From: Bacteroidota bacterium
GTDB lineage: Bacteria > Bacteroidota > Ignavibacteria > OLB7
NCBI GenBank assembly: GCA_018266795.1
Contig: JAFDZV010000013.1
Coordinates: 1-64,000 of the forward strand
Direction of reading: 5' to 3'
Length of the DNA stretch: 64,000 nt
Both the position numbers and the translations under genes were made by a program. This document shows positions 27,417-30,634 of this stretch, piece by piece. Each line of letters opens with the position of its first letter. Position 1 is the first letter of the stretch. The notes below the pieces were generated by a model. That model made no database searches. It saw only the letters and a list, made by a program, of their open reading frames with translations, and had not been told where the DNA came from.

Positions 27417-27932
27417 CTAGCGGGCGATGCCGACATCGAACACACCGCCGGCAACGGCGATCGTATCCGGCGTCTCTGGATCGGCATTCCGATAGAGCGT
27501 TGCATGGAACGTTCCGTGCACCCTGGCGGAATCGATCGAGACAATCTGCACCGATCCGGCAACGAGGTTGCTGCGGCTGGTAAACGGAACATGATAGTCC
27601 GCATCGTTCCAGCGAACGTGCATGGAATTGATGAAGACCATGAATGGAAAGGTGTTGGTGATATCGTAGGTCCCGGGTCCATTGACGTCCGCAATCGTGA
27701 TATCTACGCGACTGCGCTCCTGCCCTCCCTCGAGAAACCTGCCCGTAACGTTCAGTTCGTGTCGCGACCCGATGGCGGCATACGTGGCGTACGCGTCCGA
27801 AGCAGCCCATGCTTCACCGTGCAGAGTTGCGGACATCGATCCCGACACCTGAGGTGGCTGCACGGTATTGCTGCAGGCGCCCAACATAGCGGCCGCGACA
27901 AGGGGAAAGAATATGCGGCCTTGCGCTCTCAT
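27417..27932 (-). CDS. Small lipoprotein of unknown function
   Basis: A 171-residue protein. The ATG at 27932 gives a lipoprotein signal: MRAQGRIFFPLVAAAMLGAC, with the lipobox LGAC and Cys20 as the lipidated residue. The mature part begins with a Ser/Val-rich stretch, then reads SGSMSATLHGEAWAASDAYA and continues as predicted beta strands. This resembles DUF6252-like lipoproteins (a repeated T-A-T-x-x-G-x-x-W start), but the match is weak. It is monocistronic. Downstream (leftward) no terminator is obvious. Confidence 0.72.
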   Translation of the reverse strand: MRAQGRIFFPLVAAAMLGACSNTVQPPQVSGSMSATLHGEAWAASDAYATYAAIGSRHELNVTGRFLEGGQERSRVDITIADVNGPGTYDITNTFPFMVFINSMHVRWNDADYHVPFTSRSNLVAGSVQIVSIDSARVHGTFHATLYRNADPETPDTIAVAGGVFDVGIAR

Positions 27933-28065
27933 TCGTAGCTGGTCCGGCAATAGTGCAGAAGGACGGCTTCGCTCAATATGTCTCTGCCTCCACTGCCGCC
28001 GGAGGGACATTTGGCGGATGCATCGGTATCACGACAATCTGAACGGGACGGATGGGACCCGATGT

Positions 28066-28125
28066 AGAGAAAAACGAGACGCTGCCATTTCCCATAGGGT
28101 GTACGGGTGAATGACAGCGTCTACG
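28066..28125 (-). terminator. Rho-independent terminator, minus strand
   Basis: On the minus strand the stem AGACGCTG ... CAGCGTCT continues inward with CATT/AATG and CCC/GGG pairs, then is followed by CGTTTTTCTC, a clear U tract. The nearest annotated gene that could use it would have to lie between 28126 and about 29000, where I find no protein gene. Confidence 0.7.
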
Positions 28126-28250
28126 TTGACTAAGCGATCTCCTCGCGGGCGGGAAACGAAATAGCGACACAAGAAATTTTCGAGACACAGGGAGCGTTTC
28201 GTCTGAGGAAGCTCTTTGGTTGGTCGAGGCGGAATTATTCCGCGTACCAC

Positions 28251-28280
28251 GCGAGATGGGGGGCATGCCCCCCATCTCGC
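28251..28280. repeat. Perfect 30-bp palindrome
   Basis: GCGAGATGGGGGGCA is followed immediately by its exact reverse complement, giving an uninterrupted 30-bp palindrome with CATG at the centre. There is no T run on either side, so a simple terminator is unlikely. Confidence 0.85.
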
Positions 28281-29134
28281 CTAGCCGCTCTGATCCATTG
28301 GGGACGGAATCTCAGAGTTTCGTCGTAAACCCGAGTGCACGACAACCCGGAACACTACCGACATGGTTTCTCTGGTGGTAAGGACAAACAACCATGTCTT
28401 GATATAGCGGACTCCAGCAACTCTGTTCTCAAGGCGTCTGGACACATAGACGGAGAACCTGAACGAGTGCGAGTCTAATTCGGCAACTCGGCGACCGGCA
28501 TTCGGTACGCGTATCGGACCTCGACCATTCAGACAACTGGCCGTTTGGGGTCAGCTAGTTGTTAGGACCTGTGGTCAGGTACAAACATATTACTTGCCGT
28601 CCCAGAGAACTATTCCACCTTTGTGGAGTTTGCCACCGCATTTCATGCCAAGCATGGCAGTTCATCTCTAAGCCGTCATGAATCGGGAGCGTAACCGCGA
28701 TTTTCGTCACATTTGGCCCATTCCTGCCAGATGCAATGTTGGCATGAATTGTAATTTCCGCATAAGCAACCCCGGTGCGGCGGCACGTTTCTCCTCTCTT
28801 GACAGCGGTATGGCGGATACCTTGCGAAAGGCGCTATCGAGCTCGATCGGGATCGGAATTGGGCGCGTATTCATGACAACTTAGGGCCCAATTCTGGCAT
28901 GAATACCATCCGTTGAAGAATGCGCTATTGAGTTTCGGCAACGAAGGATATCTTCATGGAGCCGCAGCCCCCTGCGGCATTGGACACCGCAAATCGGGGC
29001 CGTAGTGGGTTGGACGCGGTGCTCACCCCTTCCTGTGAATCCACGAGGCCGGCTGCACGCGGTTGTGCGCCGGACCTGGCCATGAGCCGGCATGCATGGT
29101 CTACTACACATTCACGTTTGCAGGGTTTCGTTCT

Positions 29135-30634
29135 ATGCACTACTGCCATTCCTTGCGATTCATTCTATTGGCGTTCGCGCTCGCGGCTGCGTTTGCCCTG
29201 CCGTTGCGGGCTCAGGATCAGGACGGTCGCCTGTCCTTGGAACCTTCCCCGACGTCGGACGCCGAACAGCACTGGCCGGGGGTGTTTGTCAGAGGCGGCC
29301 ACCTCTATCTCACGTGGGGCGAATTGCGTGCCGCGGCCGATACCAATGTCAAGGCGCCGGAACTCTGGTATGTGCTGACCGAGTGGTCGCGCCGCGGCGA
29401 GGGCGCAGCCGATCTCATCGCAGCGATGCGTCCGGATTCCATCGAGGCGGACTTCGGAGCAGTTCAGGTGCTGAAACGCCCTATCGGCTATCAGCAACCG
29501 CAGGAGTTCGACGGCAACACCATCGCCGCCACGCTCCTGTGGCGCGGCGATCTCGTGAACAAGCCTGGCGGTCAGGACAGTGTGTACAAGGCACACTTCC
29601 ATCTGTATCAGCCAAGCTCCGGCGGCTGGCGTCGTACTACGATCTATGAAACGACGCGAAGCAGGCAGGTGATCAGCCTGCGGCCGAATGCCTTCAACTA
29701 CAATCCGAACGACGGAACTGTGCTGTGCGCATGGACATCGAGTGTGGAGAACGGCGGATCGGTTACGGCAGTCGATACCAGCGGAGCTGTCGCATGGAAT
29801 GTTAACGGAATCCCGATGCCGCCCGGCAGATACAGCATCGTTCCAATCCGCGATCGCGAGTTCATCCTGTTTCAGGATACACTGGCAATCCACTATTCGA
29901 ATGGCACGGCGATGGACACCACGGTGCGCTCGGTAGAGACCGGCTTACGCTATCAGCGCCTGAACGGTGATCGTTACCTCCGGACGTTTGTTGGCCCGGA
30001 TACCGCTCACTATACAGTGGAGCTGTACGATCTCGCGGGCACGAAGCTGGGGAGCAGGCTCATCGAGCATGCCGACGCTCAGCCGTACACCTTCATTACG
30101 GAGAACGGCGAGGATGGCGACCTGGGATTCATCGCGGCCAACTCCGATGGCGCCTACGCAATGGTGCTGGACCGTGACCTCAACGCACGCACTGATCTGA
30201 AGCGGATAACGCGCGGAACGGACACAACCTTCTACCCAACCGCCGGGTTCTTCGGCGATACGCTGTATGCGGCGTGGCAGGACAATCGGAATCACGTGCC
30301 GGACATCTATGGTCGCGCCTATGCCACAGGCACGTTCGTGTTCGCCGTGGACCCCGCCGAATATCGCCCTCACGCGCTCGAGCTCTCCGGCGTTGCGCCG
30401 AACCCGGCACACACTGAGGCCTCGATCACCGTAGGAGCGACCGCCGGCGGAAACCTTCTCTTCGAGATCGTCGACAACCGCGGCTGTGTTGTCAAGACGA
30501 TTGCCACGGGGGCAATCGAGGCTGGGCAGCACCAGATGCTGCTGGACGTCTCGGATCTGCCAAGCGGATCGTACCAGCTCGTGGCGCACACCGGCCGTTC
30601 GTCCGCATCCGCACGCCTGGTGGTGGTTCGCTGA
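29135..30634 (+). CDS. T9SS-secreted protein, unknown function
   Basis: A 499-residue exported protein. The ATG at 29135 starts a signal peptide with core FILLAFALAAAFALPLRAQ. The central region has repeated short beta-strand units with Trp and Asp turns (GGHLYLTWGEL, DGTVLCAWTSSVENG, LYAAWQDNRNHVPDIYG) that resemble sialidase/BNR-type propeller blades, though I cannot assign a family. The last 80 residues (SGVAPNPAHTEASITV ... LPSGSYQLVAHTG) are a T9SS type A sorting domain. It is monocistronic, followed by a good terminator. Confidence 0.82.
   Translation: MHYCHSLRFILLAFALAAAFALPLRAQDQDGRLSLEPSPTSDAEQHWPGVFVRGGHLYLTWGELRAAADTNVKAPELWYVLTEWSRRGEGAADLIAAMRPDSIEADFGAVQVLKRPIGYQQPQEFDGNTIAATLLWRGDLVNKPGGQDSVYKAHFHLYQPSSGGWRRTTIYETTRSRQVISLRPNAFNYNPNDGTVLCAWTSSVENGGSVTAVDTSGAVAWNVNGIPMPPGRYSIVPIRDREFILFQDTLAIHYSNGTAMDTTVRSVETGLRYQRLNGDRYLRTFVGPDTAHYTVELYDLAGTKLGSRLIEHADAQPYTFITENGEDGDLGFIAANSDGAYAMVLDRDLNARTDLKRITRGTDTTFYPTAGFFGDTLYAAWQDNRNHVPDIYGRAYATGTFVFAVDPAEYRPHALELSGVAPNPAHTEASITVGATAGGNLLFEIVDNRGCVVKTIATGAIEAGQHQMLLDVSDLPSGSYQLVAHTGRSSASARLVVVR

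Follow-up and report, generated by a model that had tools for sequence, protein, structure and literature searches.

In intergenic bacterial sRNA genes, a promoter box is followed on the same strand by hairpins and a strong terminator, in DNA that holds no reading frame, and OLE, GOLLD, ROOL, and HEARO are RNAs of several hundred nucleotides with multibranched folds that occupy long intergenic regions. Species-specific orphan transcription units are found by term-seq in most bacteria. We describe a gene-free spacer with the features of the first kind of locus and, as far as its fold is predicted here, with those of the second; were it transcribed, it would join those species-specific orphan units. 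The spacer lies in a window of 64,000 nt (positions 1-64000 of contig C4 in a 5.97-Mb assembly, G000, of an uncultured Chlorobiota-like bacterium), flanked on one side by a minus-strand lipoprotein gene and on the other by a plus-strand gene for a T9SS-tail protein (Table 1). Our preferred reading, to which we give about an even chance, is that the gene slot here varies between species and that its lineage-specific spacer carries an orphan transcription unit on the minus strand.

Table 1. Features of the spacer and its flanking genes, in window coordinates
Feature	Position	Strand	Basis or remark
171-aa lipoprotein, weakly DUF6252-like, lineage-specific	27417..27932	-	Pfam PF19765, E 1.5e-5, below cut-off
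Gene-free spacer	27933..29134	.	Codon scores, period-3, protein-family and Rfam searches
Intrinsic terminator	28070..28126	-	Hairpin and TTTTT
Predicted noncoding transcript, ~508 nt	28070..28577	-	Box and terminator
Perfect 30-bp palindrome GCGAGATGGGGGGCATGCCCCCCATCTCGC	28251..28280	.	No A- or T-run at flanks
TAnnTTTG -7 promoter box TATGTTTG	28582..28589	-	Sole such box in spacer
Five G(G/T)CATGAA copies, both orientations	28642..28904	.	Motif count, 1.26 Mb
499-aa secreted protein, T9SS C-terminal sorting domain	29135..30634	+	PF18962, PF13860

Gene calls outside the window came from a crude codon-model finder, and by this measure the spacer, at 1202 nt, is the eleventh longest of 928 gaps in a 1.26-Mb sample of the genome—not an exceptional length. 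For a gap of such length its GC content is low (54.7%, compared with 61% for the genome sample, and fourth lowest among the 56 gaps of at least 400 nt), with a minimum of 51.3% near 28550-28849, which bears out the remark in the initial annotation that GC falls below that of coding DNA. The same annotation saw no convincing frame here, and we agree: scores from a codon model trained on the organism's own genome were negative in all six frames over 27981-29061, period-3 was absent (0.5-2.1, versus 2.2-5.2 in the next gene), and searches of ten stop-to-stop frames against Pfam, NCBIfam, and PHROGs gave no credible match. A decayed protein gene was rejected, since the spacer retains no codon bias or periodicity and shows no protein similarity. 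Six-frame tblastn against plasmids returned nothing, no DNA similarity was detected in plasmids and phages, and repeat or MITE copies were absent from the rest of the genome. The spacer does contain a 16-nt inverted repeat (28668-28683 / 28869-28884, 88%); as the genome contains no further copy and no target duplication is evident, a MITE or IS remnant was likewise rejected.

Within the spacer, the G(G/T)CATGAA copies span 260 nt and form the sole site in 1.26 Mb with at least three copies per 300 nt; in a general 7-mer test the cluster stands out only modestly (13 of 500 shuffles, and about 10% of other gap windows). These copies could be putative operator sites for the gene at 29135. The stretch 28855-28906 also holds two interleaved inverted repeats, GAATTGGGC / GCCCAATTC and GTATTCATGACA / TGGCATGAATAC. 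Dense tandem repeats occur in five 330-nt gap windows of the same genome outside the window, each with one 7-mer present 10-133 times.

Comparison within the genus draws on one congener, which keeps the gene order DUF58 - OmpA/PD40 - slot - T9SS protein - desaturase - sigma factor and whose T9SS protein is a syntenic homologue of the 499-aa protein at about 31% identity. Its slot contains a second OmpA-like gene, a 194-aa secreted-protein gene, and a gene labelled OsmC-like from reading the sequence, with no family search, and no DNA in it is similar to the spacer. Across 60 other genomes, the 171-aa lipoprotein has just one relative, a weak one at 27% identity. Relatives of the desaturase were followed as a route to more syntenic slots, and the one examined besides the congener's (L051) was not syntenic. 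The locus might be read as an untranscribed relic of a gene or insert lost from the slot, its terminator left over and its box accidental, which we regard as possible but doubtful. The different slot content in the congener agrees with such a relic, as do the low GC relative to the genome and the lack of spacer similarity in relatives, class genomes, plasmids, or phages, yet the spacer keeps no trace of a reading frame, codon bias, or period-3, and it has neither protein similarity nor repeat copies in the genome. The decayed insert suggested in the initial annotation fits the variable slot in the same way, though neither a parent element nor a remnant of a protein could be demonstrated.

For the orphan unit of our preferred reading, the first element is the TAnnTTTG box. 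An exact box does exist on the minus strand, one base away from where it had first been placed (28589-28582, not 28583-28590). Across 1.26 Mb, TAnnTTTG occurs 88 times in the ~0.2 Mb between genes versus 19 times in the ~1.05 Mb within genes, a density ~23-fold higher between than within genes; upstream of genes in the first 0.46 Mb, 20 boxes are in sense orientation versus 6 in antisense, and these gene-upstream boxes mostly lie 50-125 nt before the gene start. Because of this intergenic enrichment and sense-strand excess, we conclude that TAnnTTTG works as a promoter element here, and its behaviour as such in a Chlorobiota-like genome is a gain of more general use. The box at 28589-28582 lies upstream of the terminator and points toward it, with a predicted start near 28576. 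Against the preferred reading, TTG is absent at the expected -33 spacing, and shuffling gives a probability of 0.11 that a TAnnTTTG falls by accident in the 800 nt upstream of the terminator.

The second element, the minus-strand rho-independent terminator, is real, as the initial annotation had it. Its hairpin (28126-28075) has an outer stem of 13 bp (28122-28110 / 28089-28077) and an inner stem of 6 bp, folds at -31.2 kcal/mol with flanks (z -7.6), and is followed by TTTTT at 28074-28070; any terminator of -25 kcal/mol or better appeared in 5 of 400 shuffles of the spacer. It had been described as lacking an upstream gene, and the nearest one on the same strand is indeed 15.6 kb away. Orphan terminators are not rare here, because 22 of the 41 strong intergenic terminators in 1.26 Mb are of this type under the same crude criteria—a count that weighs against the preferred reading and suits a relic, although the terminator is still almost perfect, with one G-U in the 13-bp stem, which argues against a relic. 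Elsewhere in the genome, two minus-strand hairpins (C10:206779-206812 and 207123-207154; L048) are alike, share the core CAGTCAGGGGTGAACTG, are each followed by a T-run, and sit together in one 771-nt gap.

Gene-free units running from a box to a strong terminator number only three in 1.26 Mb, the spacer's included, against one antisense control pair. In the spacer, box and terminator lie on the same strand with no reading frame between them. Given a box of a kind that acts as a promoter element in this genome, a real terminator, and the rarity of gene-free pairs, a minus-strand transcript over 28576-28070 is plausible from the sequence; to this extent the ~500-nt outline first proposed stands. 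The same two elements could instead form an attenuator or leader of the lipoprotein gene, in which a transcript from the box would be cut at the terminator unless a signal permitted run-on to 27932. The terminator has the right orientation ~140 nt upstream of the lipoprotein start, and no TAnnTTTG, even at one mismatch, lies between them; but the distance to the gene is long, alternative pairing of the 5' arm amounts to only ~5 bp (probability 0.67), and lipoprotein and leader are not conserved, and we consider this arrangement very unlikely.

Structure bears on a further reading. The perfect 30-bp palindrome reported earlier is present and has a folding energy of -29 kcal/mol. Only five perfect palindromes of at least 24 nt (24-34 nt) occur in 1.26 Mb, all of them intergenic, and other perfect palindromes in the first 464 kb reach at most 22 nt; no symmetric copy of the spacer's palindrome was found elsewhere at up to three mismatches, nor was the palindrome found in viral contigs. 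It was rejected as a terminator, having no flanking T- or A-run. Another palindrome, at C1:78845-78878, runs into a T-run and is terminator-like in appearance.

Together with the promoter box and terminator, the predicted fold might point to a functional sRNA confined to this species, or to one representative of a new class of large structured RNAs, at 28576-28070 (-), which we rate as improbable. In its favour, the MFE z of the whole predicted transcript is -6.8 on the minus strand (the lowest of 78 equally long windows from other gaps is at -4.71) and -3.68 on the plus; in addition, a multibranched domain is predicted, closed by a 10-bp helix (28527-28518 / 28230-28221) with a mean pair probability of 0.94. 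In these models, however, the palindrome and the terminator, two simple hairpins, account for most of the excess stability: without both, z is -2.79 (-) and -1.45 (+), and without the palindrome the domain has a z of -2.6, a fold that 14% of control windows match or better. Since the fold without these hairpins is within the control range, there is no structural signal beyond them, a point that also counts against the preferred reading. The several other hairpins listed in the initial annotation do not exceed chance (z ~0 to -1.4 singly). The most specific version of this idea—a functional ~500-nt multibranched RNA of a new lineage-restricted class at 28576-28070 (-), with the 10-bp-helix domain and a perfect 13-bp arm—is very improbable.

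Conservation tells further against a functional RNA. The spacer had no blastn match in 60 relatives (G001-G060) or in ~390 genomes of the class; weak class hits (E 0.004-0.1) covered 18-32 nt scattered over the query in distant members and were dismissed as chance level. A one-sequence covariance model (R1) of a 144-nt core, an insensitive tool that could miss a strongly diverged homologue, matched only itself in 294 genomes. The Rfam scan that had been recommended gave no match in the spacer, with only spurious miRNA and snoRNA matches on hairpins at gathering and permissive thresholds, and covariance models for riboswitches, OLE, and GOLLD were without a hit at the gathering threshold. ARAGORN and Rfam found no tmRNA, and these searches agree with the earlier statement that tmRNA, RNase P, and SRP motifs are absent. 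A 6S RNA was rejected, the spacer being unmatched, and RF00013 had no hit across the whole genome. Conservation in relatives, by which the initial annotation proposed to judge its undescribed RNA, was found neither in the one available congener nor in class genomes, and as a conserved structured RNA that proposal is not supported by sequence comparison, nor by structural excess beyond two hairpins.

As a positive control, we used a second box-to-terminator unit picked by the same criteria, at C4:179122-179375 (+; L035:15122-15375), on the same contig outside the window. Its box TTAAGTTTG is followed by a gene-free stretch of ~250 nt that folds as a long rod (-92.6 kcal/mol, z -5.45) and by a terminator of -30.8 kcal/mol, upstream of an HhH-GPD DNA glycosylase gene; in an RNAalifold consensus the rod does not clearly reappear. 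Over 200 nt the unit is 93% identical in the congener (G001); identity is 79-80% in G003 and G004 (another genus or genera of the same family), and G009 and G028 give partial matches. Because the same search found this control (readily, in G001, G003, G004, G009, and G028), a conserved RNA in the spacer would have been found, and we conclude that the spacer's unit is not conserved. Rfam is silent on the control, which may be a 6S that has diverged or an RNA yet undescribed. The third gene-free unit, at C10:241150-241345 (-; L169), has a box at 241336 and a terminator of -34.5 kcal/mol at 241156-241215, and again Rfam is silent. Gene-free box-to-terminator pairs seem to mark out noncoding RNAs: of the three units, one is conserved in the family and unknown to Rfam.

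In the reading that we prefer, of a lineage-specific spacer with an orphan unit, RNA polymerase would start at the box at 28589-28582, an unconserved noncoding RNA of ~500 nt would be made from the minus strand, and transcription would stop at the hairpin and TTTTT (28126-28070), before the lipoprotein gene. The congener's different slot content, the absence of matches in 60 relatives and ~390 class genomes, and a transcript fold below that of all 78 control windows speak for this reading too. Such a unit would most likely give a transcript particular to this species and of little or unknown consequence, or be left over from the transcription of a gene since lost; we infer both that it is transcribed and that it plays no conserved role. 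Its nearest counterpart in the genome, the control RNA at C4:179122-179375, likewise runs from a TAnnTTTG box through a structured, gene-free stretch to a terminator of -31 kcal/mol but, unlike the spacer's unit, is conserved in congener and family. Set beside OLE, GOLLD, ROOL, and HEARO, the spacer differs in having no Rfam match at permissive thresholds and no relatives, and in owing its excess stability to two hairpins; set beside intergenic sRNA genes, its unit is unconserved in the congener, and its transcript, here a prediction, would be longer than most sRNAs.
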